This document shows, in pieces, positions 17,052-55,843 of a DNA stretch of 64,000 nt. The notes under the pieces were generated by a model that made no database searches, was not told the origin of the DNA, and worked only from the letters and a program-made list of their open reading frames with translations. Position 1 is the stretch's first letter, and each line of letters starts with the position of its first letter. The stretch is from Lentimicrobium saccharophilum (GTDB taxonomy: Bacteria > Bacteroidota > Bacteroidia > Bacteroidales > Lentimicrobiaceae). The position numbers and the translations under genes were made by a program. The DNA is taken from positions 1 to 64,000 of the forward strand of contig NZ_DF968182.1 in assembly GCF_001192835.1 (NCBI RefSeq), written 5' to 3'.

Positions 17052-17059
17052 TAAATTTG
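17052..17059 (+). promoter_or_regulatory. -7 box for the OPT transporter gene
   Basis: TAAATTTG matches TAnnTTTG and lies 31 bases before the ATG at 17091. A TTTC at 17033 is a weak -33 candidate with short spacing. Confidence 0.5.
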
Positions 17060-17090
17060 CGGATCAAACTTTCAGCAAACCTGTAAACTA

Positions 17091-25798: not shown

Positions 25799-25843
25799 TT
25801 CTGAGAAAATTTTAAGCAGAAGAGCATCTATAAACAGACAACC

Positions 25844-25906
25844 ATGAAGATCAAATCTTTTACTTACCTGATGCTGTTATTGATTTCCGCTCAATTTTTC
25901 GTTTGA
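25844..25906 (+). pseudogene. orphan signal-peptide ORF, probable gene remnant
   Basis: ATG 25844 opens 20 codons (MKIKSFTYLMLLLISAQFF...) that look like a complete Sec signal peptide, then TGA at 25904. No continuation of a mature protein is seen in the other frames before the next gene's own signal peptide at 25972. Most likely the remnant of a gene whose body was replaced; a short leader peptide is an alternative. Confidence 0.4.
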
Positions 25907-25971
25907 AATCTCAAACCCCTTATCAACGACTCTATACTTTCAAAATGAATGTTTATGCAAAATTAAATAAT

Positions 25972-28900: not shown

Positions 28901-31347
28901 AAACATTTTATTCAAAGTTACAGGCAGAAACAAATGTTAGAGCAGTTGTGAAAGCCGACATGTCTGTATTTAAACCTTCCGGAGCAACACTTGCCACTTT
29001 AAATAATTCTTCCTATCCAACAGGGGAGCAAGACGTTAATTATCAAAAAGGCCTTCTGTTATTAAACATTGGTTCAAGTTCAAATCCTATTACAATTGCC
29101 AACATATATACAACAAGATATAATGAAACAGATGGAATTCTGAAATTGTATCCATCTGGGAGTTATTTATTATCCGAATATGGATATACAGATATAGGTT
29201 TTTTTGTCAACAATAGTTTCAATGATAAAGAAAATGTCTATTATTTTCGAGGTGTTTTCAACAATACCACGGAACGTGGTTGTGCAATATATCTTTCTAA
29301 AGTTAAAAATACTATCAAATTGATGGACTTTTCTGGTAATCCTATTCCTGGAATGTCAAATACAATAGATGATTTTAAATATTGTTACTCAAATACTTTA
29401 ACATTGGGAACAAGTGGTTCAAGGCAGAACAATCTTATTACAAACAATCGAACAGATACTAAATTCTCTACGTTATTTGAAACTGGAGCTATTCCGTCTG
29501 ATAACATTAGCACATCCTATTTTATTGATGACCAGACTTCGTTGGTAAAATTTGAATTGTCAAGTAAAGAATTGGATAATTCCACATTTCCATTGAATAT
29601 TAAATTACAAATACCGGACGGCACTATCATTGACAGTAGTTATGCTGGTGGAAATTTATTATATGATTCACTTTCGGGATCTTATGAAATGAGTATTGCA
29701 GATCCGATGTTTGGCAAATGGAAGATATGGGCTGAGTCAAATCAACCAGGTATCGACACTATAAGCTACGCTGCATTTGCTTATTTAAAGTCAGATATAT
29801 ATGCTTATCTGATCAATGATACAAGTATTGTTAATGTTGGTGATTATTTTAATATTGAAGCAGGTTTACAGTTGGAGAACCTTAATCTTTCAGATAGTCT
29901 CAATGTTTGGGCAACCATCACTCAGCCAGAAGGCGATACCTCAATTTACAACCTCAGTTCAAGTATTACAGCCATCGATACAGCATTTAAGTTTATATAT
30001 CCTTTTCAAACTGATACTTCGGGATACTATACTATCAAATTAAATTTTGAAGGAGTCTATAATGGTTACCGTTTTGAGCGTGTTCTCTTTCATCAGTTTG
30101 GAGCTGCAGATACAACAATCGTATTAAAATTGCCTGATATAACGCTTCGTCAAAATCACTCTTCATCAGAAATCAGATTAAGGGAATATGCTTATAATTA
30201 TACCTGTCCTTATGATTCATTGCTTTTCGAAACTTCAGCAATTTCTTCGAACATTGGCCCGAATGCATTCCTGTCATATTTAAATGATACGACATGGACA
30301 CATTATTTCAATTCAAGTCTATCTGATACGGGGTCAGTTGTGATTCAATACACTATGCTTCTTCCTGACAATAATATCATTTATGATACAATTCTGATAC
30401 ATGTTGTTTTACCTGATTTGGCAATAATAAATGATTCAGTAAACCAATTGGCTGTCTGCTCTGATTCCGCATTAGTGGCTTCATTTCAGTTAAAAAACCA
30501 GGGTAATACCTATTCAAATGCACTTTCAGTCAAATACTTTTTATCATCAGATCTGACCATCAATTCTTCAGACTTATGCTTGAAAGACAGAGTAATATAT
30601 TTTCTGGAAAGAGATTCATTAGTAAATATATCTGATTCTATATTAATACCTTCTTTTATCAACGAGGGTTTGTGGAATTTGATTATTGCAGTGGATCCGG
30701 ATGGGTTCATAAAAGAAGTCAATGACAGTACGAACAATGTTGCCATTCTGCCGCTAACTATTCAAAAATTATCAACACTGAATGTAAAACTATATCTTGA
30801 AGGACTATACAATGCGCCAAACGGGAGTATGAATCAGGCTCATGATGAGGATGGTCCGGAATTTCAGGGTTTAGTTGCTGACCTGGTAACAATTAGATTG
30901 GCAAACGCGCTTCCTCCTTACGCAATAGTTAAAACATTTGAAGATGTTGAAATAGGAACCAATGGGATAGCCTCTGTAGTCATTCCGCAGGACTTAACAG
31001 GAATTTATTACATTGTAATAAATCACAGAAACAGCATTGAGACGTGGAGTGCAATCCCTGTTACATTGAATTCTCCATCAATTAATTACGACTTTACAAC
31101 AGATTCATTTAAAGCTTATGGAAATAATATGAGATTAATCGGGATAAACAATGTTCTCTTCACCGGAGATGTTACCCAGGATGGTGTCGTGGATATTGCA
31201 GATATGACCCAGGTTGATAACGATTCAGCCGTTTTTATGTCAGGTTATTTAGTAACTGATATTAACGGTGATGGAATTGTAGATACTGCTGATATGAGCT
31301 ATATTGATAATAATTCTTTCGGATTTGTTGGTCGAATAATCCCATAG
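25972..31347 (+). CDS. giant secreted LamG / PKD / lipase-like hydrolase / CARDB / dockerin-like protein
   Basis: Start ATG 25972 (or 25978) gives signal peptide MKYIIITVILALACQIYAQ; upstream TTG 25903 would bury it. About 1791 residues. By eye, in order: LamG (about 20-215), a second LamG-like domain (about 230-435), a PKD-like domain (about 440-540), an alpha/beta hydrolase/lipase region (about 690-960) with nucleophile elbow THSMGG (Ser ~793), a Lys/Ser-rich middle of unclear fold, a CARDB-like domain (about 1490-1600), and a C-terminal pair of calcium loops (DVTQDGVVDIADM, DINGDGIVDTADM) resembling type I dockerin. It is probably an extracellular esterase or lipase; the substrate is unknown. 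There is no classical T9SS CTD; the dockerin-like end may play that role. Confidence 0.82.
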   Translation: MKMKYIIITVILALACQIYAQVPTNGLVAYYPLNGNAIDASGNGNNGTINGGVTSTTDRFGITNMAMQFNGYNGYILVNSSTSFPSTAITTAFWLNRKGLVANGLENYICKEHAFSTYIYPNAEIVSQVWKGSAGQWTEWTAGSYTVPMDNEWIFYASTFDNFTKIVRIYINGGLVNTINETNPNAIVRTSSSPLYIGRNGSSSVYFIKGVLDDLRLYNRALSSIEIQQLYNEQSYNSLNSGLVAHYPFDNNFLDYSENGYDGTQSGGVSFTSDHLLQQNGAASFDGQNDQVNITPSGDLLNYCAGNHSYSAWIKLNSVPAVPKFVVDASGVGTGGDQRGINFSGNNYPGFKWVTTTSSYTVYSTQPLTPGVWYHIAGKLEGNTGKIYVNGVLKGTLSSTGTPTSIFNFKIGNISGGGTGNGFFNGNIDDLRVYKRALSEAEIRNLAQANIPLSVGFIISDMEPSVNEAIQLTVQSEGNPPPNKWTWNFGDNTPIQIINTPASPDISHTYSQTGLKEIKLTVENGTGISLSMSQTVQVSSNNKGIDLEIIETGGTNDVAFLGYFYEWRSCSWCLQPHFVRKIFPVEIVGGKRMAYINEFEDASTYIYNKLISDFNDTIYLYDATYKQLGHIAFQYDHSLQGESPRNAIIFFHNDNEMKVNPENTNKPFFPYSTASPEYKSGWNYYKIDEYPVSMLIPPNNSFPSSYNKPPVILVQGVSGTYSYSTNPNADFTQNDVSYWYTTPRLLNEKAHYDAWQYYYPYDTDIEHLGIGLKPAIDSLKAKYNQKIRIVTHSMGGLVTIKYLTKYSNNPNYDSREMIEKVLFTAPPMHGSYSANRLYRTAMGTLVEYFANKDKQAPAYRDLSLGSKFVEELNSGDWTSLIDLNGNDTLSDDYFALLGTTEKYHSSSSVHEESYKHSDGVVSISSASLLDHGIGFATIHGNHDDCNHGQSKNKKKYNIGLPDLIPEIIDSYFFDPAETFYSKLQAETNVRAVVKADMSVFKPSGATLATLNNSSYPTGEQDVNYQKGLLLLNIGSSSNPITIANIYTTRYNETDGILKLYPSGSYLLSEYGYTDIGFFVNNSFNDKENVYYFRGVFNNTTERGCAIYLSKVKNTIKLMDFSGNPIPGMSNTIDDFKYCYSNTLTLGTSGSRQNNLITNNRTDTKFSTLFETGAIPSDNISTSYFIDDQTSLVKFELSSKELDNSTFPLNIKLQIPDGTIIDSSYAGGNLLYDSLSGSYEMSIADPMFGKWKIWAESNQPGIDTISYAAFAYLKSDIYAYLINDTSIVNVGDYFNIEAGLQLENLNLSDSLNVWATITQPEGDTSIYNLSSSITAIDTAFKFIYPFQTDTSGYYTIKLNFEGVYNGYRFERVLFHQFGAADTTIVLKLPDITLRQNHSSSEIRLREYAYNYTCPYDSLLFETSAISSNIGPNAFLSYLNDTTWTHYFNSSLSDTGSVVIQYTMLLPDNNIIYDTILIHVVLPDLAIINDSVNQLAVCSDSALVASFQLKNQGNTYSNALSVKYFLSSDLTINSSDLCLKDRVIYFLERDSLVNISDSILIPSFINEGLWNLIIAVDPDGFIKEVNDSTNNVAILPLTIQKLSTLNVKLYLEGLYNAPNGSMNQAHDEDGPEFQGLVADLVTIRLANALPPYAIVKTFEDVEIGTNGIASVVIPQDLTGIYYIVINHRNSIETWSAIPVTLNSPSINYDFTTDSFKAYGNNMRLIGINNVLFTGDVTQDGVVDIADMTQVDNDSAVFMSGYLVTDINGDGIVDTADMSYIDNNSFGFVGRIIP

Positions 31348-31719
31348 TGCTTTTAATCACTATTGTCTGGATATGTTGGAATTTCCGGCTTTTATTATGT
31401 AAATTAATAATATTCAGTATATTATAAGGTATTTTTTTTAATTTCATAAGTATACCCGCTTTTTAAAATAAGGCTAACAGTACATTTTTATAAATGTTAA
31501 TTCAAAAAATTAAAAAGTATGATATCATTTTTGGTGCAGTCTGCCTCCCGGCTGTATATGAGGTTGGCGGCACCTACAAGTAAAACAAAAATTGTATTAA
31601 TTGTGTTTTTCAGCAAGCTCATAAGCAGACAAGTCTCACCAAAATCTGTTTCTTTCATAATTGACGTCATAAGCGTATTTGCGTGAGATTGTGACTGCTG
31701 TGTGTATTACCTTTGCCCC
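31348..31719. other. AT-rich intergenic region, 372 bp
   Basis: No gene is seen. Its right end holds the radical SAM promoter. It separates the low-GC surface-protein genes from the intact radical SAM gene. Confidence 0.55.
31708..31715 (+). promoter_or_regulatory. -7 box directly before the radical SAM ATG
   Basis: TACCTTTG fits TAnnTTTG and ends 4 bases before the ATG at 31720. Transcription would begin at or near the start codon, implying a leaderless mRNA. TTTG at 31678 is a long-spaced -33 candidate. Confidence 0.45.
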
Positions 31720-33414
31720 ATGAAGCATTTCACCATCCCCATCTTCGTACCTGAGCTGGCTTGCCCCAACCGCTGCGTATTCTGCAACCAGCACAGTATT
31801 TCGGGCTGCCATAAACAGCCGGAACCGGATGAGGTGCGTGAAATCATTCTGCAGCACCTGAAAACAATCCCTGAAAAGGATTCGCACATCGAAATCGGAT
31901 TCTTTGGTGGTAGCTTCACCGGGATTGAGCCGGAGTTGCAGGCATTGTATCTGGATGTTGCCCGAAGTTTCATGTCTTCAGGCCGCATCCACGGTATCCG
32001 CCTCAGTACCCGGCCCGACTATATTGACGCAGATGCATTGAAGCTGCTGAAGTCATACGGAGTCACCACCATTGAGCTCGGGGCACAGTCGCTCGACGAT
32101 GAGGTGCTGATGCTTTCGGGGCGCGGGCATACGGTCCGGGATGTGGAGAAAGCATCGGCCTTGATCCGCGAAGCCGGATTTAAGCTGGGCCTCCAGATGA
32201 TGACCAGCCTTCCCGGCGATACTCCTGAAAAGGCCATGGAGACCGCCCGGCGTATTGTTGAGCTTGGAGCCGTCTGCACGCGCATATATCCAACCCTGGT
32301 CATCAGGGGGACAGAACTGGAAAAGCGCTGGCGGAATGGTGACTACCAGCCACAAACCCTGGATGAAGCAGTGGAACTTACCGCCCGTTTACTGGAGATC
32401 TTCCGCGAAGCCGGCGTGGAGGTAATCCGTGTGGGATTGCACCCTTCGGAGGATCTGCTGGGAGGAAACGACCTGCTGGCCGGTCCTTTTCATCCTAATT
32501 TCCGGGAACTGGCCGAAACCTTAATCTGGAAACGGAAACTTCAGCCTCTGCCTGAGCTGCACCCTGCCGGCGGCAGCATCCGTATTCCCGTCCCCGCCGG
32601 TGAAATGCGCTATGCAACCGGATTTGCCTCATCAAACCGTGAAATGCTCGAAACACATTTCAGCCGGGTGGAATTTTACGAGGAGGAAGTAACTTTTCAT
32701 AAAAAACCGCTGATTCTTACTGATAAAAGGACGCCCCTGCCGGTTAAAAATGCACTGAGGAACCGTGGCAGGCTGGTATTGTTAAGCACGGAGAACATGG
32801 TGTATAAGTCCATCAGCGGGCATCCGGATATTTTTCTTTGCGCCGGACAGGAAGCCGTTGTTATGGCTCCTGGCATACCTGAAGAAATTAAAAATGCCCT
32901 TTCAATACATGGCATACCGGTAATCCGTGGCAGTGCAGATCCGGGGAAAACCTATCCCGCATCCGCCCGCTACAACGCGGTAATCACACCGGAATACATT
33001 ATCCACAACCTGAAAATCACAGATCCGGTAATTGCGGAAACCTTTAAAAAGCGCAAGCAACTTCATGTAAACCAGGGGTATACCCGGTGTAATTTACTTG
33101 CACTGGATAACGACCGCTTTATAACCTCCGACCGGGGCATAGAAAAAGTGTTGGTAAAGGAAGGGAAACCGGTGTTATATGCTGATCCTGCTCCGGTCAG
33201 GCTGCATGGGCAAAAACACGGATTTTTCCCGGGTTGCTGCGGAATACTGGATCGTGAAGTCTTAATAACCGGAAGCCTGAAATATCATCCTCAGGGAGAG
33301 GAGATCAGATCATTTATCGGATCGGCCGGATACTCCGTTCAGGAATTGTATGATGGTCCGCTGACGGATGTCGGAGGGATTTTTATGTTAAAATCCACTC
33401 ATTTCAGGCAGTAA
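31720..33414 (+). CDS. Elp3-like radical SAM protein with a C-terminal GME-fold-like domain
   Basis: ATG 31720 is used (a GTG at 31702 would lie upstream of the promoter box). 564 residues. The N-terminal ~300 residues form a radical SAM TIM barrel with the [4Fe-4S] cluster motif CPNRCVFC, an IGFFGGSFTG motif and HPS/ED segments typical of COG1243/Elp3-like enzymes, but no GNAT acetyltransferase domain follows. The last ~260 residues are a different domain (GYTRCN, ITSDRGIEK, HGFFPGCCG) that resembles the DUF6873 GME-fold family (guanidino-group-modifying-enzyme fold) from memory; this is inference. The reaction is unknown. Partial copies of its ends lie at 20804 and 34361. Confidence 0.8.
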   Translation: MKHFTIPIFVPELACPNRCVFCNQHSISGCHKQPEPDEVREIILQHLKTIPEKDSHIEIGFFGGSFTGIEPELQALYLDVARSFMSSGRIHGIRLSTRPDYIDADALKLLKSYGVTTIELGAQSLDDEVLMLSGRGHTVRDVEKASALIREAGFKLGLQMMTSLPGDTPEKAMETARRIVELGAVCTRIYPTLVIRGTELEKRWRNGDYQPQTLDEAVELTARLLEIFREAGVEVIRVGLHPSEDLLGGNDLLAGPFHPNFRELAETLIWKRKLQPLPELHPAGGSIRIPVPAGEMRYATGFASSNREMLETHFSRVEFYEEEVTFHKKPLILTDKRTPLPVKNALRNRGRLVLLSTENMVYKSISGHPDIFLCAGQEAVVMAPGIPEEIKNALSIHGIPVIRGSADPGKTYPASARYNAVITPEYIIHNLKITDPVIAETFKKRKQLHVNQGYTRCNLLALDNDRFITSDRGIEKVLVKEGKPVLYADPAPVRLHGQKHGFFPGCCGILDREVLITGSLKYHPQGEEIRSFIGSAGYSVQELYDGPLTDVGGIFMLKSTHFRQ

Positions 33415-45307: not shown

Positions 45308-45658
45308 TCATTCCATTTCTTCAATGGTTTTACACCTTGAAAAAATCAGCAGATTGTTTGTCCAGCTAATTTCTCTCACCAGTGGTGAGAGTTTTGGAAA
45401 GTCTTTGTAAGTCTCGTAAAACTGCTTCATTCTCCAAATATTTTTGTCGGAGAATCCTTTTATTTCTGGTTCTTGTTTCTGTATGAAATTGGCTAATTCT
45501 GTTACTACAGAGTCGCCCCATTCTGATTGTTCAATTTTTTTGCTGATATATTCTCCTGTGTTCCAATAGAGGTTTATAAGTTCAGCGTTTACGGCTTTTA
45601 TGGCATTAGTGCGAGATTGTTTTATTAGCTGAATTATGTCTGTAAAACGATTGTCCAT
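45308..45658 (-). pseudogene. truncated DUF1016 (YhcG-like PD-(D/E)XK nuclease) gene, N-terminal part
   Basis: ATG 45658 (the TTG at 45679 adds 7 non-conserved residues) gives 116 residues that match the DUF1016 N-terminal helical domain: INLYWNTGEYIS, RNIWRMKQFYETY-like KNIWRMKQFYETY, and SWTNNLLIFSRCKT. The usual C-terminal nuclease domain is absent; a stop at 45308 cuts the reading frame just after TIEEM. Full-length members (~340 residues) are defence- or toxin-island nucleases. This is a broken remnant at the cassette border. Confidence 0.8.
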
Positions 45659-45732
45659 GTATATATTTTTATGCTTCAAATTTATGCTTTTTCAATCGTG
45701 ATTCTCTTTTGGAACCGGTTTTCTGCCATTAA

Positions 45733-45865
45733 TGCTAACGGTTGGCGGTATGGTTAGTTGCCGATTACGAAGCACTTACCTATCAAGTTACAACTACTTT
45801 TGATACGAGTTGTGCCGCACGAATACGCACTGCACCGGCAATTAACTATACCGCATGTTGGCAAC
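45733..45865. repeat. attC-like imperfect inverted repeat
   Basis: The left arm (45733-45763, GCTAACGGTTGG then CGGTATGGTTAGTTGCCG) is complementary to the right arm (45836-45865, CGGCAATTAACTATACCGC then ATGTTGGCAAC). About 20 consecutive positions pair with two mismatches, and the loop holds a further ACAACT/AGTTGT stem. The outer ends (GCTAAC, GTTGGC) resemble, but do not strictly match, integron attC core boxes (RYYYAAC/GTTRRRY). Confidence 0.65.
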
Positions 45866-46103
45866 TGGTGTTCATTCATATCCGTCTGTATTTCATTTAT
45901 ATAGCTTTTATTTTCTTGTCATTGTCAATCTGCACCTACCTATCTGCGAAGAACAAATTTATTTTGTTTTTTTGAGCGTGGGCAATCCTTAAACCGTCCT
46001 GAAAGGCGGTTACGTGGGCAGGAAAGTCGGAAGCTCTTTTGCAAGCCTTTGGTTTGAGCGTTCGCTCGTGTGGGCTTGCAAATGTGCTTACGACTGTGCG
46101 TTG
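45857..46103 (+). repeat. left flanking element of the defence cassette
   Basis: It begins GTTGGCAAC (45857), contains AAATTTATTTTGTTTTTTTG at about 45956 and ends in a stem-loop: GTCGGAAGCTCTTTTGCAAGCC pairs with GGCTTGCAAATGTGCTTACGAC (19 of 22 positions). A diverged copy in inverted orientation lies at 55013-55254 with the same parts in the same order and similar spacing. Confidence 0.75.
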
Positions 46104-46111
46104 GCTCTTCA

Positions 46112-47617
46112 TTAGTTCAATTCTGTTTTCAGTGTATTAATTACTGTTAAGGCACTTTGAATTTCGGCTGTAATTTCATGCTTATTTACATCGTGATGAC
46201 TTAAAGGATTTAGAACCAAAGTAATCAAATGGTCAATCGCTGTTGTCGTTGCAGGAGTTAATCCACATGCTGGAGTGACTGTTTTGTATTTCTTAACTGC
46301 ATTCCAGAATGTATCTGTTTTCATTTTTGAAGTATCCGCATTGAACAATACTGGAACTTTTCCAAAACAGTATCTTTTTAAAATAAACTCAAATGCTGAA
46401 CGCAAATAAACACCTGCTGCTTTATTGTCGCCATTGTCAAAATATGATTGTGCTTTATCTATGTAATGTTGAATATGAGAGCTATCCTTTATTTCGTGAA
46501 TTATTGGTATTTCAAACCCTTGTGCAGACCGTCTCGCATAAAACTCATAGCTTTTCCAAGTCGAATTATTGTGCAAATAACTTGATTTTATAAACTCATA
46601 CCAAGGTTTATCATAAGTAGTTATAAAAACTTGATAAGCTGCAAAATCCGAATCTAAGATTTTAAGCAAGGGTAAACGGTTGCTTATGTCTAAACCAATA
46701 AATATATCGTCAAGAAAAAGTATTTTACATGGAATACCTTGGATATGCCGTTTTACCATTCCCAAATAAATTGAAATGGCAATGGCTGAAAGTCTTGCTT
46801 CGTTTAGGAAAACATGAGGTTTGGGAATTGTTTTGCCCAAATATTTTATGCTAATCCTTACATGGTTGCGTTCATAAGTGCTATAATCCGCATTAACTTT
46901 TGTACTTGTGTAACGCAATTCTATTTCAATATTATGACCGAACTTATCAAGTATCGGTTGGGCAAATCTTAAAATATTTTCGGGACTTCCAGCCTGAAAT
47001 AGTTTCGAAAACGCTGTATTGAATGCCAACAAAGCAGCATCTACATCGGATTTTTTCTTTGTGATGTTGTATGCAGTACCTTCAAGTGGTTTTGCAACAG
47101 CTTTTTCAAAATCAGTCCATAACTCGCCAAGTTCTTTGTTACCAGTAATGGCAACGCTTTTAAAATGCTTTAAAACGCCTTTAACCAATAAATCAAACAA
47201 ATCAATTTCATCGTTTTTCTTTATGTGATGAATGTCTAAAAGATGTTTGTAGGTTAAAAAGCTTTTGAGCTTTATTGCATCACGAATACTGGTATCACCT
47301 GTGGCATATGTGTTTTTTGTTGTTTTCGTAACCGAATATTCTTTGCCTGTTGGTGTTGTATTGCCATCCTTATCTGGATTGAAAAACACTTTTATATATC
47401 CATTGCCTTTGTTTGCCTCTTCAATAAAAATGTTTTCGGTTTCATCGTAATTGAAATCCTCAATTGATGATTGAAAAAAGTCTTTTAAGGCATAGTAAAG
47501 AGAACTTTTGCCACTACCATTTTCTCCATAAACAAAAAGGTTTTTACCATCAACGGCTATTTCTTTAGTACCATAAAAAGCTTTATAATCACGGATTTCT
47601 ATTTTCTTGATTTTCAT
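46112..47617 (-). CDS. AAA/ABC-type ATPase of the defence operon
   Basis: 501 residues. The Walker A loop GENGSGKSS (31-39), the ABC-like signature region LNEARLSAIAISIYL (281-295) and the Walker B KILFLDDIFIGLD (298-310) identify a RecF/SMC/OLD-like nucleotide-binding protein. The C-terminal ~110 residues (LRSAFEFILKRY..., NPLSHHD) are helical, possibly HEPN-like, an inference without a clear RxxxxH. It overlaps the small nuclease-like gene by 4 bases (start/stop overlap) and is the last gene of the five-gene operon. It probably powers or senses, coupling to the helicase and methylase. No known textbook R-M system has such a subunit. Confidence 0.8.
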   Translation of the reverse strand: MKIKKIEIRDYKAFYGTKEIAVDGKNLFVYGENGSGKSSLYYALKDFFQSSIEDFNYDETENIFIEEANKGNGYIKVFFNPDKDGNTTPTGKEYSVTKTTKNTYATGDTSIRDAIKLKSFLTYKHLLDIHHIKKNDEIDLFDLLVKGVLKHFKSVAITGNKELGELWTDFEKAVAKPLEGTAYNITKKKSDVDAALLAFNTAFSKLFQAGSPENILRFAQPILDKFGHNIEIELRYTSTKVNADYSTYERNHVRISIKYLGKTIPKPHVFLNEARLSAIAISIYLGMVKRHIQGIPCKILFLDDIFIGLDISNRLPLLKILDSDFAAYQVFITTYDKPWYEFIKSSYLHNNSTWKSYEFYARRSAQGFEIPIIHEIKDSSHIQHYIDKAQSYFDNGDNKAAGVYLRSAFEFILKRYCFGKVPVLFNADTSKMKTDTFWNAVKKYKTVTPACGLTPATTTAIDHLITLVLNPLSHHDVNKHEITAEIQSALTVINTLKTELN

Positions 47618-48027
47618 TTTAGTTGGTTCCAGTTATTTTTATAATCTATGGCTGAATTGCGAAGCATAGAAAGGTTTATACCTTTTCGGTTTCCTTTTGG
47701 GTTTTGATATAGAAAATCTTTCACTTTATTGTGTGGGATTACAAACATTTCAGGAACTACCGAAATTTCATCCATTTTATTTAAGAACGATAGAAATACA
47801 ATGAAATGATTCGGCTTGTCGGCTTTCTCATTTACATTATCTAAAGGAAATAAGGTTGTGCCTTGTAAGCCTTTTACATCAATAGTTAGTTGCTTCTCAT
47901 CATTTAGGTTGAGAATAATATCAATACCTTTTTTGTTGCCAAGGGTAATGTAAGCATCAAAGCCCAAGCGGTAAAGAGTAGCAAGTACATAATACTCTGA
48001 AGCTAAATTGGTATTATAACCTTTCAT
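47614..48027 (-). CDS. small PD-(D/E)XK-like protein of the defence operon
   Basis: 137 residues with the spacing of a PD-(D/E)XK nuclease core: E11 in an N-terminal helix (ASEYYVLATLYRLG), D36 (NKKGIDII) and D50-V-K52 (LTIDVKG). A basic and aromatic C-terminus follows. It overlaps both neighbours by 4 bases (methylase end and ATPase start), so it is translationally coupled. It could be the restriction nuclease of the system or a Holliday-junction-resolvase-like subunit. Assignment rests on motif pattern only. Confidence 0.7.
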   Translation of the reverse strand: MKGYNTNLASEYYVLATLYRLGFDAYITLGNKKGIDIILNLNDEKQLTIDVKGLQGTTLFPLDNVNEKADKPNHFIVFLSFLNKMDEISVVPEMFVIPHNKVKDFLYQNPKGNRKGINLSMLRNSAIDYKNNWNQLK

Positions 48028-51000
48028 TTCAACGCCTCCTTAATTATCCTAACCTCCTCAATGCTATCCAATGTTTCCAAGTTATTGCGTACAGGGTGGT
48101 TTGGGTCGTACAAACGTTCAAACTCGCTTTGTATCACTGCCAGTTTTTCTTCTTCGCTCATGCTGTCGGTTATGGGCTTTAAATCGCAAAGGTGTTTGAG
48201 GATTTCTTTGTTAGCGGATTTGAGTTCGGTGGGGAAGTAAAGTTCATAAATAATTCCATTCAAAACAGTAGAAAAAAATGTAAACAGTACTGTTTCATTA
48301 ATTGCGTGAATATAATCTACAACTAAATCAATTTTAGAATTAATACTTTTGTCAATTATAGCAATAGGCAATTCTCTAAGTTCATTTAATTTGATATGTA
48401 AACCGCTTGAATAAACATTAGAGTACCAAACATTTAATAGTTCAGAATTTAAAATTGAAAGTATATATTCAAATGAATATTGTTCTAATTTGTAAATTGA
48501 ATTTAACGTATCGTTAGTTAAGTATCTACTATTATCAATTGCAGCTTCTATACCTTTAGCGACATCCTTAATAACTATTTTTTTTTCTGTTATAAAATAT
48601 TCTAATCTCCTTGGTCCAGCACCTTTTTTCTCACTCATTAATTCTGGTTTATACCAGAGCCACTTATTTGCATATTTAATTTTCCAGCGAGAAACATCCT
48701 TACCTCGAATTAAACGATAAGAATCATTATCTCTTTTTGAATCAGATATAAATCTTAAATCATCACTGGTTTTAATACCTAATGTAAAATGGGCAATAGA
48801 GCCAAGTTTAATTACAGGTATTGAAAATGTAAACTGCTGGTCAAATGAAAATGGAAAACTTGGCAATTTTCTTATATTGGAGTACTTCAATTTATTGGGA
48901 AGAACAACAAATCTAGTATCTATAAGTAAATGCATTGGTATTTCGTTTTCTTTTACCGACTCTTTTTTAAAACCAAAAATTACTGGAGTTACTGTTGCAT
49001 CAAATACATTTCCATTGCATTTAACTAAGTCAATAATTTTTGTGTTTTCAACTAAAAATTTTCTAAAATTCAAAAAACTATCTATTCCAAGCCAACTATT
49101 TGAAACAATAAAATATAGAGTGCCATTTGCCCTACAAATGCCATATCCTTTTTCAGTAAAAAAAGAATATAAGTCTGATTTGTTTCTTGCTACCTGATAT
49201 TTTGTTTTTAAAAATTTTCTAATTCCTTCATCTTTAATATTTGCAATATTTACATATGGCGGATTCCCAATTACCACATCAAAACCACCCTTTTCATGCC
49301 ACACCTCTGAAAAAAACAATTTAAAATCGAAGTCTATTTTATAACCTGCAAATCGCTCAATAGAATCAAGCAATTCCCTTATCTTGGTATTTATCTGCTT
49401 TCTTAATTCCTTCTTTTTTGTTTCGTTTGTTTCATTATAAAAAAGTGGTTTTAAATCCTCTATTTCCTTTTGCTTCTCCAAATCGGGAAAAACATCAGCA
49501 GGCATTCCAATCAATGAGTTGCCACAAACAATTTTGTAATCGAGGTTTGGCAAGGTTTCAATGGGTTCAAAATCGTCTTCATCCACTACAAGAGACAGCC
49601 ATAATCGTAAACGTGCAATATCAATAGCCGAGGCATCAATATCAACACCGTAAATACTTTCTTGTATAATGTGGCGTTTCAGTCGATATATGTAACGGCT
49701 TTCGCTTAGTTCATCTCCGTTGTTTTCGCCCTTTATCGCTTTCAGCTTTTCTGCTAAATACTTAGGGCTTAAATGTGGCTTTATTACTAAATGTGCATTA
49801 ACCAGTTCGTGTAATAATCCCACTGGGAAAGCACCCGAACCAATGGCTGGGTCGCAAATTTTTATTTCGGTAAGCTTTTTATCAATCAGGTCGGCATGTT
49901 GGCGTATGCTTTCAGGCAATATAAATTTGTAATCGGGTGTTTCCTTTCCTTTGTTTACCACACGCTGGTCATGTTCTAATGCAAAATGCCCGTTTCGGAT
50001 AAAGTGTTCAATATCAATTTTAGGAACTTTTATACCCTGATGCGAAAGGTTTATGGAGTGCTGTCCTTTCTTCCCTGCGTTACCGAACATATTGGTTTGG
50101 CTATCGCCAATTTCCTGAAATGTTTCGGTGTAATTGTTCAGCGAATTGTCGAGGTAGTGTATCAAGCTTTCCTGACACATGTAATGCACAATTTCCCTTG
50201 GGGTATAAAAAGCTCCTTTGCTTTTGCGTTCGGTTATTTCGAGCATGTTTTCGAAAACCTTACCCAACATTTCAGGGTCAACGGCAACCTCTTTATCAAG
50301 CGGTTCATCTTCTTTTATGGTAAAGTTGTAACGGTCGAACACGTCAAGAATACCTGTACCCGTATCACCAGATTTGTTTTTATCCGTGTTTCGGAAAATA
50401 GTTTCCGGAATGGAAATATTAGCGTTTCTCCAGTCGTATTCTGCCTCAAACAAACCTCCATTGAGGAACGGAATACGGCAATCGAATTTAGCGTAATACG
50501 AGTTTTCATTGTCTCGCTCTTTTGCCAAGGCTTCGTAAAACAAGTATTGCAAATAATCTTTAAAGAAGTTTTTTTTTTCGTTTTTCGATGTGTCAAACAA
50601 TTGTTGCATAAAGCGTTTTTCGCCGTTGCCCCAGGTTTTATCCTTTGGCACACCCAGCCAGCCTTTTTTCTGCAAGAAATATAAGAAAACTATTTGCCCC
50701 AACAGCTTTTTGGTAAAGCGGGAAGTATCAATGTTTGATTTTACCAATTCGTTTTGAATAGCGGCATCGTTTTCGAAATGCTCATACAGTTTTACAAACA
50801 AATCTTTGTATTGGCTAAAGAACTCATCGGTAACTTTTTCAATACTAAAAGCACTCTCAATTTCTTCGATGGTGGCGTTGCTGCTTACATTTTGCAATAA
50901 GGGCAACAATTGGTTTTTGGCTGTATATGCCTTTTCGTATTTACCTACCAAAAACGAGTATCGTTTGGCAGGCGTAAACTCTTTTCGGGTTTTTACTTTT

Positions 51001-51416
51001 CCTTTTTCTTCATCAACAAAGGCTTGATGTTCGAGTTTAATGAACGAGAAACGCCAGTCGGCACCTTCGTCTTGTTTTGAATAAAAAGCAACAAGGGCAT
51101 AATCCTTCTCGAATTTCACCAAGTGTTTAATTACAAAATTCCGCAAAGCGGTTCGTGCCCTTTCGAGTTTCAAAACACTTTTTACTTCTACAATCAGAAT
51201 GTCGAGGGCTTCACCGTCGGGGTCAATGTATTTGCCAATTCGCTTGTAAGTGTTTACATGCTCTTTGTAATCGTCCCAAATATATTGACCGCTGTAACTG
51301 TTGCTTTTGGGTTCAACATCGTTCAAAAAGTTTTTGGCAAACAGTTCAAAACGGGTTTCATCAAAAGCTTGATTGAATGTTGACTCTATGAGGTTGGTAG
51401 CAGTATTTTTATCCAT
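48024..51416 (-). CDS. Eco57I-type N6-adenine DNA methylase
   Basis: 1130 residues. Methylase motif I CDPAIGSGAF (521-530) and catalytic motif IV NPPY (718-721) identify an N6-adenine methyltransferase of the Eco57I/Type IIG class. An N-terminal ~390-residue region carries LDILIVEVKS (71-80), which could be a D...ExK nuclease core (D72, E77, K79), but the spacing is short and this is uncertain. A C-terminal region (about 840-1030) with RGKDV and the TaqI-like block is the likely DNA-recognition domain. It starts 2 bases after the helicase stop and is followed by a 4-base overlap with the nuclease-like gene. Confidence 0.9.
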   Translation of the reverse strand: MDKNTATNLIESTFNQAFDETRFELFAKNFLNDVEPKSNSYSGQYIWDDYKEHVNTYKRIGKYIDPDGEALDILIVEVKSVLKLERARTALRNFVIKHLVKFEKDYALVAFYSKQDEGADWRFSFIKLEHQAFVDEEKGKVKTRKEFTPAKRYSFLVGKYEKAYTAKNQLLPLLQNVSSNATIEEIESAFSIEKVTDEFFSQYKDLFVKLYEHFENDAAIQNELVKSNIDTSRFTKKLLGQIVFLYFLQKKGWLGVPKDKTWGNGEKRFMQQLFDTSKNEKKNFFKDYLQYLFYEALAKERDNENSYYAKFDCRIPFLNGGLFEAEYDWRNANISIPETIFRNTDKNKSGDTGTGILDVFDRYNFTIKEDEPLDKEVAVDPEMLGKVFENMLEITERKSKGAFYTPREIVHYMCQESLIHYLDNSLNNYTETFQEIGDSQTNMFGNAGKKGQHSINLSHQGIKVPKIDIEHFIRNGHFALEHDQRVVNKGKETPDYKFILPESIRQHADLIDKKLTEIKICDPAIGSGAFPVGLLHELVNAHLVIKPHLSPKYLAEKLKAIKGENNGDELSESRYIYRLKRHIIQESIYGVDIDASAIDIARLRLWLSLVVDEDDFEPIETLPNLDYKIVCGNSLIGMPADVFPDLEKQKEIEDLKPLFYNETNETKKKELRKQINTKIRELLDSIERFAGYKIDFDFKLFFSEVWHEKGGFDVVIGNPPYVNIANIKDEGIRKFLKTKYQVARNKSDLYSFFTEKGYGICRANGTLYFIVSNSWLGIDSFLNFRKFLVENTKIIDLVKCNGNVFDATVTPVIFGFKKESVKENEIPMHLLIDTRFVVLPNKLKYSNIRKLPSFPFSFDQQFTFSIPVIKLGSIAHFTLGIKTSDDLRFISDSKRDNDSYRLIRGKDVSRWKIKYANKWLWYKPELMSEKKGAGPRRLEYFITEKKIVIKDVAKGIEAAIDNSRYLTNDTLNSIYKLEQYSFEYILSILNSELLNVWYSNVYSSGLHIKLNELRELPIAIIDKSINSKIDLVVDYIHAINETVLFTFFSTVLNGIIYELYFPTELKSANKEILKHLCDLKPITDSMSEEEKLAVIQSEFERLYDPNHPVRNNLETLDSIEEVRIIKEALK

Positions 51417-51418
51417 AA

Positions 51419-54400
51419 CTATTTAATAAGATAACCAGACAATATTACTTCACGGCGTTGAAAAGATTTATTTGAACCAATGGTTTCGATGGCAACTGAG
51501 CGGATGTGTTTACGCAAAATATGCAGCACATCCATTGGGTCTATTGTTTTTTCAAGTTCTTTCTTAATATCTTGAGCTGTTCGTTTTGCAATGGTTCCGT
51601 TCAACAACATATTTTTTACACCTTCAATAAATTCTTCATCCGTATCGGTAAATGTTTTACAATTTTTAAACACCTTGTCTTTTAGCCTGTTTTCGATATA
51701 TTTTGCATTCGATCGACCGCCCGATGCTTCCGAAGGTTCGATTCCAATAGTTGAATCCAGCTCAAAACGGGCTTTATTGGTTTGCAATAAATGAAAATAA
51801 TCTTCCGGGATTTTGGCTCGTTTGGTTAGTGGTGTACATTCCAGATTATGCACTGCATCGAAAAAAGTAATCTCAGTAGAATTACCATTATTATTTTGAT
51901 AAAACTTCTTTAGTTTGCCAATTCTAAAAAAGGTAAACAGTTGATTGGCTTCAAGTTCTGTTTTCACAAATCCAGAACGTGCCTTTTTAGGTAATTCTTT
52001 TATTTTTTTGAAAAAGTCCGGGTTTTTATCCCGAATGTCACGCATTAATTCCAAGTATTTTAATTCAGAATCGCCTTCTTCGCCTTCACCAGTGTAGGCT
52101 TGTTTGTTGTTCAGAGTATTGAATAATTCCTGACTTCCAATTTCTTCACCATCGGTAAGGTATTTAGCATCTTCGCCCAAAATATCGTGAAACATTTGGA
52201 TTTTGTTGGTAATATTTATTTCCAATCCTAAATGTTCATCGGAATGGGTAGTTGGAAAGAAGTTAAAAATATGCACCGTCGGAAATTGAGAACCCAAACG
52301 ATTTACACGACCCGCTCGTTGCAAAACTCTTGTTGGATTCCAAGGCAAGTCGTAATTAATAATTACATTCGAGCGGTGCAAGTTAATACCTTCCGCCAAT
52401 ACATCTGTGGCAATCAGAATCCTCAAATCGTCCGATTTTTCCTTTCGGTTCGGGTCGAAATTGTCTTTTATTAAATCGCGCGAAATGGCATGATTTGAAG
52501 TCAGTGTTTTATTTGTATGTCGTCCGCCAATGCTCGAATAGAACATAACCTGATTTGGAAATTCTTCGATAAGTGCATTGTATAAATAATCGCCCGTTTC
52601 TTTTGATTCAGTAAAAACAACAAGTTTATTTTTCTTTAGTGCTTTGTTCGTTTTCAATTCAGCAATGAACTGTTCTAATTTAGGGTCTTGGTCAACTTTA
52701 GCCCAAAGAGCTTTTATATCCTTTAGAACTTGCAAATCAAATTCCAGTTTTTCAACGAACTCTTTTCTAAAATCTTTTGAATCGTACTTGCTCGCTTTAT
52801 CTTCGTCAACAAGACTTTCCAGTTTTTCAAAATCGTCATTATCGAGTAAGTCATAAACATTTACTTTTTTGCTAATGTATACCGTACCATTTTTGTACAT
52901 CTCAATAAAACGGTCGTAAGAATCAATAAAACGGTCTACACTTTGGCGAAAAGCATAGAAACTACTTTCGAGCCGTTTCACCAGAATGCCTTTCATAAAA
53001 CCACCAACGTTACGTTGTTGTTGCTTTTCGAATTCACTTAAAACTTTATTCCCAACATAATAAAGCAAAGGTGTATATCGGGCGTAAGTAAAAGAATGTA
53101 AATATTTTATGGTGTCATTAAAAATACCTTCAAGCTTTCCTTCGTATTTGTAAATTATTTGTTGTGGATTGTCCACTTCGGGAAATACCAAACCTTGTTT
53201 TTCCATGTCGCCTTTAAAGAACTTCACAACATCGGTACGTGTACGGCGAACCATTACATAACGTAGTATGCTGTTTTTAATCTCATTCGATACTTCTTTA
53301 ATGAGGGTTTTATATTGTGGGTCAGTTTTCTCAACCTTTTTAAGGTTGGTCTTTAATCCGTTAAAGAATTTCTCCAGATTTGGTACGCCTGGAATTGTTG
53401 AGTTCTTGGGTGCCTGAAAAAGTTTAATTTGAGCAAATATATCATCAACAGTATTATTTAACGGAGTTGCAGTTACCAAAATAACTTTTTTACCCCTGCA
53501 AATATCCAATAGATTAGCATACGATTGTGTGTTCTCGTTTCTAAAACGGTGGGCTTCATCAACCACAATATAATCAAAACGTTCCAATCCTCGTTTAATA
53601 ATATGTTCCAGTTTGCCTAATGATTCCACTTCAAAACTACGAACTCCGAAATCGAAAAGAGAATCTTTCCAGTAGTCTTTTAACACAGGTGGGCAAACAA
53701 TTAAAGTGCGTCCTTGTAGTTGTTGAAGCAACAAAGCAGTTATAAAAGTTTTGCCTAAACCCACTACATCAGCTAAAAACACACCGTTATATGTTTCCAA
53801 TATTTTTTTTGCCTGAATTGCAGCCTGACTTTGGTATTTAAGTTTCATAAAACCATCAGGTAAAAATGGGTCGAATTCATCTGCAAGGTTTATATCTTCT
53901 TCAAGGTATTCGTATATCAGTTTTAAATACAATTCATAAGGCGTAATTGCATCATTTAGCCAAGTCTTTTTGGTTATGGTATCAATGAAATCGTCCGAAA
54001 TATCAACCGATTCTTTCCAAAGTGTATTGAATTGATTTTCGGCAAATTTAACGTCCATTTTCTTTCGCAATTCCACGTTAAATTCACGATTTGCAATAAA
54101 TCCAGATTCAGAAAAATTACTTGAACCCGTAATTACGAAGCCATAATCTCTATCATCGGGGTAAAATCTGCCAATATAAACCTTAGCATGAATGTTTTTT
54201 GACGGATAAGCTCGGATTTCTAACTTCTTCCCATTTCCGCCATTTGATTTATCCTGTTCTTGATTTTCAAGTTCGGTCTTTAAAAACTCAATGAATTTTT
54301 TAATCCCAATTTCCAGATGATTGTCATTCTCGTTGCTTGTTTCAATTTCAGTTTTCAGGTTTTGTTGAAATTGTTTTTTAGTTCTTTGATGCGATTCAAA

Positions 54401-54667
54401 ATCAAGCATTCCCAATTGCTCATGATACTGCATAATATCATAAGTTTCACGGTCAACATTAAGCCCAACTAATATTCGAATCTTCTCAACTGGTTCTAAT
54501 GATTCATAGAGTTGATAGAATCCACTTGTACGGAAATAGCCAACAAGTACATCAAATAATTGTGTGTCTTTAAGAGTAGCTTTGAAGCGACTTAAAAGAC
54601 TTTGACCTTCTTCGTTAGTGAAAAAGGTTAAATCGGAATGGTCTATATGTGTTGTATTTTCTGCCAT
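51419..54667 (-). CDS. PLD-domain SNF2-type helicase of the defence operon
   Basis: 1082 residues. The N-terminal PLD-like nuclease domain has one HxK motif (H160, K162; NIHAKVYIGR) followed by GSSNFSESG (181-189), so it would act as a dimer. The helicase core is complete: Walker A GLGKT (303-307), DEAH (370-373), TATP (399-402), motif V ATDVLAEGINL (753-763) and motif VI QRAGRVNRLG (783-792). Such a protein can translocate on DNA and cut; in this operon it likely provides the motor and perhaps the nuclease. It starts 7 bases after the XRE gene. No DUF1998 or HsdS is present. Confidence 0.92.
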   Translation of the reverse strand: MAENTTHIDHSDLTFFTNEEGQSLLSRFKATLKDTQLFDVLVGYFRTSGFYQLYESLEPVEKIRILVGLNVDRETYDIMQYHEQLGMLDFESHQRTKKQFQQNLKTEIETSNENDNHLEIGIKKFIEFLKTELENQEQDKSNGGNGKKLEIRAYPSKNIHAKVYIGRFYPDDRDYGFVITGSSNFSESGFIANREFNVELRKKMDVKFAENQFNTLWKESVDISDDFIDTITKKTWLNDAITPYELYLKLIYEYLEEDINLADEFDPFLPDGFMKLKYQSQAAIQAKKILETYNGVFLADVVGLGKTFITALLLQQLQGRTLIVCPPVLKDYWKDSLFDFGVRSFEVESLGKLEHIIKRGLERFDYIVVDEAHRFRNENTQSYANLLDICRGKKVILVTATPLNNTVDDIFAQIKLFQAPKNSTIPGVPNLEKFFNGLKTNLKKVEKTDPQYKTLIKEVSNEIKNSILRYVMVRRTRTDVVKFFKGDMEKQGLVFPEVDNPQQIIYKYEGKLEGIFNDTIKYLHSFTYARYTPLLYYVGNKVLSEFEKQQQRNVGGFMKGILVKRLESSFYAFRQSVDRFIDSYDRFIEMYKNGTVYISKKVNVYDLLDNDDFEKLESLVDEDKASKYDSKDFRKEFVEKLEFDLQVLKDIKALWAKVDQDPKLEQFIAELKTNKALKKNKLVVFTESKETGDYLYNALIEEFPNQVMFYSSIGGRHTNKTLTSNHAISRDLIKDNFDPNRKEKSDDLRILIATDVLAEGINLHRSNVIINYDLPWNPTRVLQRAGRVNRLGSQFPTVHIFNFFPTTHSDEHLGLEINITNKIQMFHDILGEDAKYLTDGEEIGSQELFNTLNNKQAYTGEGEEGDSELKYLELMRDIRDKNPDFFKKIKELPKKARSGFVKTELEANQLFTFFRIGKLKKFYQNNNGNSTEITFFDAVHNLECTPLTKRAKIPEDYFHLLQTNKARFELDSTIGIEPSEASGGRSNAKYIENRLKDKVFKNCKTFTDTDEEFIEGVKNMLLNGTIAKRTAQDIKKELEKTIDPMDVLHILRKHIRSVAIETIGSNKSFQRREVILSGYLIK

Positions 54668-54674
54668 GCAATAA

Positions 54675-54956
54675 TTACTTAATCAATTTGAGGGTTTCGT
54701 TTAATCCATCTTCTAAATACTTCAAATCTCCCAAATCATTAAGAATCAAAAATTTTATGTAAGTAATTTGGATTTCTTTCTCAGTTTTATCAAGAGTTTC
54801 AGCAAGCACAGGAATCATTTCAGAAGTTGGTTTTCTTTCGTTTCGCTCAATCTTACTTAAAACTGAAGTGTCAATATCAAGAGCAGCAGCAACTTTTCTT
54901 AAAGGCAATTGCTTGTCTTCCCTCAATTTTCTGATATATTCTCCAAATATTTTCAT
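54675..54956 (-). CDS. XRE-family HTH regulator, probable controller (C-protein-like) of the defence operon
   Basis: 93 residues. An XRE helix-turn-helix domain (about 5-60: YIRKLREDK, PLRKVAAAL, VLSKIERNERKP) followed by a short Leu-rich helix for dimerisation. As the first gene of the operon, 7 bases before the helicase, it resembles controller proteins that delay restriction until DNA is modified. A perfect palindrome at the predicted start of transcription (54974-54985) fits autoregulation. Confidence 0.85.
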   Translation of the reverse strand: MKIFGEYIRKLREDKQLPLRKVAAALDIDTSVLSKIERNERKPTSEMIPVLAETLDKTEKEIQITYIKFLILNDLGDLKYLEDGLNETLKLIK

Positions 54957-55012: not shown

Positions 55013-55254
55013 AGTGGCGCGTGGGGAAAAAACAGCTCTTTTGCAAATTTAGGTCGTGCGTTGGCTTGTGCGATTTGCAAATGTGCTGTTTTGTGGGCGG
55101 GGTTTCTTTCTTCTTTTTTATGCGGGGGGAAGAAAAAAACAAAATAAATTTCCATCAAATTTGCACTGTGCTATCAAAAAGCAAAATCCTTTCTATTTTC
55201 AATTTATCACTATCGTATCAGTCTGTCGTCTGTCTTTTTACACTTGTTGCCAAC
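55013..55254 (-). repeat. right flanking element of the defence cassette (inverted copy)
   Basis: Read on the minus strand it begins GTTGGCAAC (55254-55246), then AAATTTATTTTGTTTTTTTC, then a stem-loop (AAAACAGC...TTTGCAAAT pairs with ATTTGCAAA...GCTGTTTT, 18 of 20). The order matches the left element at 45857-46103, so the operon is bracketed by diverged inverted copies. Confidence 0.75.
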
Positions 55255-55360
55255 GAGTGCATACCCGCGACTAATCCAGGAAATTTAACCGGCGCTTAAG
55301 ATTAGGCTTAACTTATTGTCATTCAAGACTAAATTCAAAAGATCACTGACGTTATCTCAT

Positions 55361-55376
55361 TTTTAAACGTTTAAAA
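55361..55376. repeat. 16-bp perfect palindrome
   Basis: TTTTAAACGTTTAAAA is its own reverse complement. Role unknown; possibly a protein-binding site. Confidence 0.5.
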
Positions 55377-55759
55377 GCGCTTGGAATTACTAAATTATAT
55401 ACGCAACTCAGGCCCAAATGTATAACATTAAAGAAAAATATGCAACAGGCAAAAGGATTGAAGCGGTATATTCTGCTTCTCCGCTAAAGCTGAAATTAAA
55501 AGCCCCGGACTGTTTACTTTTTTGGGAAACAATCCGGTATCGGGGCGAAGATTAGCCCGTTTAATTATCCCGGGAAACCGGTAAAAGCCACTTGAACCAC
55601 AGGAATTTTAATCTTTTCTGTAATGGTGATCGCGTGAAATTTTTTGCGGATAAAAAGCAGAAACTAAGTCAGGAACTGAAAAGTTTGAGTCAGGTAATAG
55701 TATAAATAAAGAAAACCTCTGTTATATGCTTGTTATAAAGCACTTACAGAGGTCTTTCG

Positions 55760-55843
55760 TACCCCGGGCCGGGATCGAACCGGCACGAGCTCACACTCAT
55801 TGGTTTTTGAGACCAACGCGTCTACCAATTCCGCCACCGGGGC
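55760..55843 (-). tRNA. tRNA-Leu (anticodon CAA)
   Basis: On the minus strand: acceptor stem GCCCCGG/CCGGGGT (G1-U72 wobble), D-arm, anticodon stem-loop TTGGT-CTCAAAA-ACCAA giving anticodon CAA (decodes UUG), a long variable arm, and the T-arm CCGGTTCGATCCCGG. No encoded CCA. A type II tRNA of 84 nt. A TACCTTTG box (55855-55862) lies just upstream. Confidence 0.96.

Follow-up and report, generated by a model that had tools for sequence, protein, structure and literature searches.

What kind of defence system is encoded by five closely packed genes of Lentimicrobium saccharophilum, and how might it have come to its present place? The genes lie on the minus strand of positions 1 to 64,000 of contig NZ_DF968182.1 (assembly GCF_001192835.1). 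This whole 64-kb stretch is called the window; plain coordinates refer to it, and genes are numbered 1 to 5 in their order along the operon. All our readings are based on sequence comparison and predicted models. They point to an ATP-dependent restriction–modification (R-M) system of two proteins, encoded by genes 2 and 3, which would be guarded by a suicide RNase encoded by a third gene, gene 5. We give this reading, which leans on analogy, a probability of about 0.5. An earlier note, made from the letters of this DNA, had described a tightly spaced, one-strand defence-type operon, a description that is supported here. The list of open reading frames (ORFs) of the window confirmed the five frames, their coordinates and the inter-gene gaps of 7, 2, -4 and -4 bases. 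The domain calls of the note also agree in outline with Pfam, PADLOC and NCBIfam (HTH_3; PLDc_2 with SNF2/Helicase_C; Eco57I).

54675..54956, minus strand: gene 1, small XRE-type helix-turn-helix protein, probable operon regulator (93 residues; Pfam HTH_3, E 3.6e-10)
51419..54667, minus strand: gene 2, PLD nuclease domain fused to an SNF2-type helicase/translocase, core (1082 residues; PLDc_2, SNF2-rel_dom, Helicase_C)
48024..51416, minus strand: gene 3, Eco57I-type N6-adenine methylase with TaqI_C recognition domain, core (1130 residues)
47614..48027, minus strand: gene 4, PD-(D/E)XK-like protein, accessory cargo (137 residues)
46112..47617, minus strand: gene 5, Rad50/RecF-type ABC ATPase with C-terminal predicted HEPN domain (501 residues)

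The conserved core of the operon

A scan of named genomes with a helicase profile found at least 563 stretches encoding relatives of gene 2. The best 80 loci were kept, so that this set leans to close relatives; the locus samples in general are skewed towards relatives of the window operon. A methylase gene is next downstream of the helicase, on the same strand, in 73 of the 76 loci with at least 300 bases downstream. The spacing is at most 120 bases in 51 of the 73, and 22 have an insert between the two genes. The exceptions are L081 and, with less than 600 bases to inspect, L082 and L116 (L, G and C numbers are our labels for loci, genomes and contigs). Many phyla have kept the helicase–methylase dyad by itself, and the nearest named helicase relatives on the tree belong to Bacteroidota. 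Because the pair is so constantly kept, whereas gene 5 occurs in a subset of loci, the conserved core of the operon, by these comparisons, is the PLD–SNF2 helicase followed by the Eco57I-type methylase. The five genes do not form a unit, as the note had taken them to: of 15 loci gathered through gene 5, only that of G303 has all five, with gene 4 interrupted. Tested by co-occurrence, the five are thus rarely together, but genes 2 and 3, and to a lesser degree genes 2, 3 and 5 (11 of the 15), recur as sets.

Eighteen further genomes of the genus were searched for gene 2, and a relative of near full length (38%) was present in G396 alone. A second, diverged copy of the operon is present in the same genome as the window (L033, C2:736500-756400; 9888-18838 within the locus). 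It is without gene 4, and its genes 2, 3 and 5 are 33-37% identical to those of the window operon. Helicase matches occur in 3 of 50,697 phage records (E 1e-20), none covering more than 80% of the query, and in 3 plasmid records at E 1e-80.

The motifs of the two core proteins are well kept. In gene 2 relatives, H160, K162 and GSSN181-184 of the PLD domain are found in 79/79 ungapped rows and E195 in 78/79, and the Walker A and DEAH residues are present in 80/80 rows. The alignment shows a PLD domain without the Asp of the classic HKD motif, in which it presumably resembles BfiI. Gene 3 matches Eco57I (1.6e-38) and TaqI_C (5.7e-19) in Pfam. Its DPAxGSG residues are near-invariant, and NPPY/W is conserved in 62/62 ungapped rows. 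The absence of HsdS had been remarked upon in the note. There is indeed no separate HsdS, but gene 3 carries its own TaqI_C recognition domain, and the lack of HsdS is therefore not a lack of specificity.

The N-terminal E77-x-K79 of gene 3 is variable. Both residues are present in the window protein, and among 63 relatives E77 is kept in 16 and K79 in 35. Since the PLD and methylase motifs are near-invariant and E-x-K is not, cutting was assigned to the PLD–helicase, and recognition and marking to gene 3. With E77 in a minority and K79 in about half of the relatives, gene 3 is a weak candidate for the main nuclease. Right after the variable E-x-K, residues 84-88 form a conserved L/I-E/D-R-A-R stretch (E85 in 46/63, R86 in 47/63, R88 in 58/63). 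That this stretch contacts the helicase is a guess.

Gene 5 and its predicted HEPN domain

The note had called the product of gene 5 an AAA ATPase. An ATPase it remains, but one of the Rad50/RecF-type ABC group, with a predicted HEPN domain that had been overlooked. In the whole-protein fold search, residues 1-381 match SMC, Rad50 and RecF heads. Most solved relatives in the profile search are heads of Rad50 and SMC proteins; a few are ABC transporters, and one is a designed protein. Neither PrrC nor RloC is among the matches listed in the structure searches. The ABC part extends from residue 1 to about 378 and the predicted HEPN part covers about 376-501. Because the whole-protein searches covered the head only, the C-terminal domain was modelled alone. 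In a model built from 22 rows (predicted local distance difference test score, pLDDT, 84), the last 126 residues form five helices. HEPN structures are at the top of the VIA-align list for this domain. The first is 2hsb (Z 13.2, root-mean-square deviation 2.2, 113 aligned residues), followed by 4nqf, 1ufb, 2q00, 1o3u, Csm6, the sacsin HEPN domain and HEPN-MNT toxins. Of the non-HEPN structures, a designed protein ranks 22nd (Z 9.2); helical proteins without relation to HEPN appear from rank 36 (Z at most 7.3). Moreover, 2 of 12 family members match DUF4145 (best 6.5e-4), which is a HEPN family (PMC3710099; this and the other papers given by PMC accession are cited for excerpts). The C-terminal domain of gene 5 is predicted to adopt the HEPN fold.

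Only four residues are invariant in 23 gene 5 C-terminal domains, namely R406, E410, N470 and H474. The triad Arg-x3-Glu...His is found in 23/23 members, with Ser before His in 21/23. As for the Rx4-6H motif, the domains have an invariant N-x3-H and no invariant Arg 4-6 residues before the His; some have an Arg 8-9 residues before it. The CxxC zinc-hook motif is absent in 23/23 members, and C-x-C occurs in 1/23. Members of the family are 374-646 residues long.

The distribution of gene 5 was followed in 395 genomes of the phylum, 26 of which matched at E 1e-3, several of them only through short SMC/RecF-like stretches within long ORFs. Outside the window, 16 loci matched at E 2.3e-9 or better, and 15 of them were taken. 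In 14 of these the methylase is immediately followed by gene 5 (in three, the contig ends inside the methylase), and the fifteenth, L040, has only gene 5 remnants. The 11 loci mentioned above, which include the second copy L033, share the order helicase, methylase, gene 5; in L037 and L047 gene 5 is represented by pieces only. In the best 80 helicase loci, gene 5 is found in 11, and in 9 of the 38 in which 2.5 kb or more past the methylase could be inspected. The core would thus work without gene 5, as most core loci lack it. Loci bearing gene 5 include Planctomycetota (L078), Aminicenantes (L084) and KSB1 (L094). On the helicase tree, its presence requires 6 changes, compared to about 17 after shuffling (52 rows; gene 5 is present in 23, of which 11 were found via gene 5). 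By this distribution, gene 5 is a clade-linked third part and not core. On a Nostoc plasmid, gene 5 lies behind a protein with a TaqI-like domain, in a stretch with no annotated helicase. Seven plasmid records match gene 5 at E 1e-5, three of them over 80%.

A proposed restriction core with an RNase guard

The reading of the mechanism changes once gene 3 is seen to have a specificity domain and gene 5 a predicted HEPN domain of RNase type. As its conserved motifs suggest, the Eco57I/TaqI_C protein would recognise its target via its C-terminal domain and methylate adenine in host DNA. On unmodified phage DNA, it would act with the SNF2 translocase, and the fused PLD domain would cut. The ABC–HEPN protein would be a separate effector, with two restraints on its HEPN site: the ATPase head and contact with the restriction proteins. 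By analogy with PrrC and EcoprrI, inhibition or evasion of restriction by a phage would free the HEPN site, RNA, most likely tRNA, would be cleaved, and translation would stop. Such a guard role is proposed because gene 5 follows the methylase, its R, E, N and H are invariant, HEPN structures rank first and EcoprrI-PrrC provides a precedent. As in the anticodon nucleases PrrC (of EcoprrI) and RloC, which cut tRNA, an ABC ATPase is joined to a C-terminal HEPN-type domain with Arg-x3-Glu...(Ser)His and is encoded with an R-M system. The gene for PrrC lies within a Type IC operon, and PrrC itself is kept in the Type IC complex (PMC3874165). In RloC the triad is Arg-x3-Glu-x36-52-His, often with Ser before the His, and each residue is required (PMC2610378). 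However, the R-M partner in EcoprrI is HsdMSR, whereas in the window operon it would be the PLD–SNF2 helicase with a one-chain methylase/recognition protein.

Several observations weigh against an RNase guard. Gene 5 is absent from 29/38 core loci with 2.5 kb beyond the methylase. According to the tool's own caution, VIA-align Z values below about 13 may be due to chance for helical bundles, and Foldseek by itself gives the C-terminal domain weak matches (best E 0.07). The spacing from Glu to His in gene 5 is 56-68 residues (114 in L046), longer than the 36-52 of RloC, and gene 5 scores 13.2 bits with Pfam AAA_13 (PF13166), whose cut-off is 36. These last two differences, together with the missing CxxC zinc-hook, separate gene 5 from PrrC and RloC. 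As judged from its sequence and model, gene 5 thus has a PrrC-like architecture, but membership of the PrrC/RloC family falls short of proof.

Alternatively, the gene 5 product could belong to the restriction complex itself as a genuine subunit, a clamp for DNA scanning or loading like that proposed for CxC-ABC/Pbe systems, and its HEPN domain would then bind RNA or protein and not kill. ABC heads of the SMC/Rad50/RecF type bind DNA, gene 5 is clustered and not scattered on the helicase tree, and in CxC-ABC systems an HKD–superfamily 2 (SF2) helicase is joined to an ABC ATPase, sometimes with a methylase as well (PMC10853773). However, an invariant set of R, E, N and H is to be expected of an active site, and a subunit is hard to reconcile with the many core loci without gene 5. 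We consider this role rather unlikely.

It is also improbable that gene 3 is a self-contained Type IIG enzyme, with the PLD–helicase and the ABC–HEPN protein acting independently or as helpers, for instance in degradation after an initial cut. Gene 3 does combine a methylase with a recognition domain (Eco57I and TaqI_C), as expected for Type IIG. Its residues 1-821 match the PADLOC Type IIG profile (REase_MTase) at 7.9e-209, and the window protein has the E77-x-K79 signature. This signature is nevertheless poorly kept compared to the PLD residues (78-79 of 79 rows), and genes 2 and 3 stay together in 73/76 loci. The preferred reading remains a two-protein restriction core with gene 5 as its guard.

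Comparison with known systems

A PADLOC search (2023 profiles, single proteins) gave no named system with the same components. No report of this gene arrangement was found in the literature covered, which does not take in the 2020 survey of ABC ATPases by Krishnan et al. (gkaa726), a possible description of the gene 5 family. Type ISP enzymes (LlaGI, LlaBIII), as defined in PMC3874165, have the same order of nuclease, SF2 translocase, gamma N6-methylase and recognition domain. They are single chains with an N-terminal Mrr-like nuclease, whereas the window system has two chains and a PLD nuclease and thus is not a member. Functionally, it would be a split Type ISP-like enzyme, as judged from its domains. 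SauUSI, CglI and NgoAVII share a PLD nuclease with an SF2 helicase-like ATPase. Unlike the window operon, SauUSI is a Type IV enzyme with an SRA reader, and CglI and NgoAVII have separate R and H chains and a B3 domain. CxC-ABC/PbeABCD systems share an HKD domain and SF2 helicase with an ABC ATPase, and partly a methylase. They have a zinc-hook coiled coil of about 400 residues, which the gene 5 family lacks, and the methylase here is of Eco57I type.

The note had also held that the locus is not a canonical Type I, BREX (bacteriophage exclusion) or DISARM (defence island system associated with restriction–modification) system, which is borne out. In contrast to Type I, the recognition domain is fused to the methylase and the helicase carries the PLD domain. 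Genes 1-5 have no PglZ or BrxC match (Pfam, E 0.1; NCBIfam, 0.01), and the PglX-type score is 93.2 bits compared to 500. There is distant homology to DISARM class 1 in the SNF2 helicase and adenine methylase (DrmD, DrmMI). However, none of the five genes matches DUF1998 (DrmA/DrmB), and DrmD scores 153.5 bits compared to 610.

The helicase–methylase–ATPase loci that the note mentioned correspond to Hma, whose ATPase is DUF499 (PMC8565338, PMC12839542). These BREX-related systems have a helicase, a methylase and an ATPase in common with the operon, and an HKD–SNF2 fusion in Type-2 BREX-related (BR) systems. They differ in having a DUF499 instead of an ABC–HEPN ATPase; DUF3780 is not among the operon genes, and Hma was rejected as no DUF499 match was found for genes 1-5 (Pfam, E 0.1). 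That the operon derives by reduction from DISARM class 1 or the Hma/DUF499 systems, with partners lost, is very improbable: gene 2 matches DrmD (4.7e-40) and HmaA (7.9e-29), gene 3 matches DrmMI (3.7e-30) and PglX (1.2e-24) in PADLOC, and Type-2 BR systems consist of an HKD–SNF2 helicase and an N6-methylase (PMC12839542), but the scores are far under the curated cut-offs with partial coverage, matches to DUF499 and DUF1998 are lacking in Pfam, and the dyad is conserved alone in many phyla.

A putative integron-type cassette

The operon is located in a low-GC block (2-kb means of 0.33-0.38, compared to 0.44-0.53 on both flanks), with a tRNA-Leu gene at 55759-55843 near its 5' side. Comparison with a same-genus genome places the edges of the inserted block at about 45197 and at 55232-55246. 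The features at these edges are as follows.

45308..45679, minus strand: truncated DUF1016 gene (N-terminal domain only; Pfam DUF1016_N, 1.2e-32), cargo remnant beside the operon
45732..45868, plus strand: attC-like imperfect palindrome on the 3' side of the operon (model R1, 139 bits)
55232..55256, no strand: 5' junction of the putative cassette, with the TGTTGCCAACG box at its end (homology breakpoints)
55252..55445, plus strand: sequence common to the end of another palindrome cluster, possible insertion-site sequence (84.6% to C1:2819194-2819388 of the same genome)

The window palindrome folds with a z of -2.97. In 14 copies, 95.7% of cells pair, compared to 72.5% in shuffles and at most 47.8% with slid partners, and 17/25 stem pairs show compensatory changes, the structure being derived from the same alignment as these pairing statistics. 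The genome contains at least 41 palindromes (model, rough E 1e-3), a lower bound since 150 of 636 candidates were scored. Twenty of them are on one strand at C1:1948-1998 kb, in a single array beside a tyrosine recombinase, and most ORFs of the three stretches read there are opposite in strand to them. The array recombinase (603 residues) scores 215 bits with the integron-integrase model (cut-off 265) and leaves model positions 182-241 unaligned. No relative of it was found at E 1e-20 near the clusters at C1:1504-1516 kb and C1:2804-2819 kb. A further palindrome site of the genome is at C2:318 kb, and cluster parts are present in L164-L166 and L174-L176. Palindromes also occur in G198 (33), G428 (8) and G303 (5), and are often beside tyrosine recombinases that score below the integron-integrase cut-off. 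In G198, 10/13 such recombinases are within 10 kb of a cluster of at least 3 palindromes, a proximity matched by 0/20000 random placements and 55/20000 circular shifts.

As in integrons, structured palindromes form same-orientation arrays, genes are mostly on one strand and a tyrosine recombinase adjoins. Arrays of attC-like sites that fold as single strands are thus found here, as the covariation and the 20 same-strand copies indicate. However, the end boxes deviate from the attC consensus, and the putative cassette has a length of about 9.5 kb and five genes. The recombinase falls under the integrase cut-off with the stretch 182-241 unaligned and so lacks the IntI-specific additional domain, a defining feature of integron integrases (PMC9668308). 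The palindromes and recombinases are possibly a non-canonical integron system of Bacteroidota.

Palindromes also lie near some copies of the operon. The operon of G303 is in line with a homologous recombinase (38%) and two palindromes, with a partial palindrome about 0.2 kb past gene 5. In L033, a palindrome is located 0.95 kb past gene 5, on the 3' side. All six full palindromes near operon copies share their orientation relative to the operon. Upstream of the operon, homology between the window and G303 ends at 55246, exactly at a G303 palindrome, and chromosomal homology with same-genus genomes begins at 55232 (G398) and 55243 (G407). In G407 the same chromosomal site holds other genes and two palindromes. 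As regards a possible attI site, the sequence 55252-55445 is common to the end of one other palindrome cluster but not to the array beside the recombinase. With attC-like palindromes at its edges and an array with recombinase in the genome, the operon may travel as one cassette. These comparisons suggest that it is probably a single large integron-type cassette of about 9.5 kb in a hot spot, with attC-like palindromes as its limits. Two similar hairpins (46025-46095 and 55029-55092, arms 87% and 90% complementary) are found at the two edges of the operon within the putative cassette.

The palindromes could instead be another kind of repeat, the operon having arrived by another route into a tRNA-adjacent hot spot. 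This is a serious possibility, though not the one we favour, and several findings count for it and against a cassette. In a search that took in part of the loci gathered, palindromes were found in only 5/43 operon loci (window, L033, L034, L045, L054), and in L045 and L054 their distance to the last core gene is 4.7 and 5.6 kb. They are present in 8/18 genomes, each chosen for a relative of an operon gene. G398 has about 1.4 kb of other genes at the chromosomal site, where a palindrome was not found. The recombinase is under the integron-integrase cut-off, and a pattern scan for the attC consensus RYYYAAC/GTTRRRY gave no site. On the other side stand the same-orientation array with its adjoining recombinase, the G198 recombinases beside palindrome clusters and the homology break exactly at a palindrome. 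No long direct repeat was found across the island edges, the 20 largest repeat families listed being all short.

Taken together, we tentatively picture a widespread two-gene class of PLD-SNF2/Eco57I R-M systems to which an ABC–HEPN suicide effector may be added. In Bacteroidota it may have spread as a single five-gene cassette by an integron-like system with attC-like palindromes and an IntI/Xer-related tyrosine recombinase devoid of the IntI-specific domain. If so, RNase-guarded restriction, known from EcoprrI-PrrC, would also be used with a quite different restriction core, and cassettes with attC-like ends would be a vehicle for an entire multi-gene defence operon. Cassettes that carry restriction or methylation genes are already known, as are integrons in Bacteroidota (PMC8618304). 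Very few integrons have been reported in this phylum (PMC9024848), perhaps because the recombinase seen here fails the usual integrase definition.

Accessory genes and cargo

A homologue of gene 1 directly precedes the helicase in L033 (51%), L034 (97%), L054, L055, L056 and L064. For gene 4, the PD-(D/E)XK-like pattern named in the note is common to its relatives when aligned by eye, but no match was found in Pfam (E 0.1), PADLOC (1e-3) or NCBIfam (0.01). Relatives of gene 4 occur in 10/395 genomes, including that of the window and G303, and the eight neighbourhoods other than these two are all without the core. One of them, L139, has an Eco57I-type methylase, and L142 has separate PLD and helicase genes. 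The proposal that L138 (67% gene 4 homologue) is a Type I operon was rejected, as the neighbouring gene encodes an AAA_21/AAA_15 ATPase. The G303 helicase is 97% identical to that of the window, yet its gene 4 is interrupted; it is split by about 235 inserted bases (L034, about 14490-14720). As its relatives are found elsewhere without the core and it is interrupted in the closest relative, gene 4 was rejected as an essential nuclease. By its distribution, it is accessory cargo.

Other genes are inserted between helicase and methylase. One ORF was scanned in each of 17 of the 22 insert-bearing loci, giving Bro-N (5), Schlafen AlbA_2 (5), DUF1016 (2), Fic (1), RhuM (1), AbiEii (1), ATPase_2 (1) and an IS200-like transposase (1); the Bro-N, Schlafen, DUF1016, Fic, RhuM and AbiEii types make up 15/17. 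Matches among the downstream genes scanned include AAA_13 (L101), McrBC (L049), Schlafen (L085) and RhuM (L120). Other downstream genes are HSP70, DUF2254, DUF3800, UvrD, histidyl-tRNA-synthetase-like and aminotransferase genes, and several have no match. PrrC/RloC-type proteins are often found in R-M operons with RhuM-like or Fic/Doc-like genes (PMC3710099). Complete DUF1016 genes adjoin the core in L036, L042 and L089. Optional cargo is the best explanation for both gene 4 and the DUF1016 remnant. Finally, the window contains a second low-GC block at 22000-32000, with 2-kb means of 0.34-0.38.

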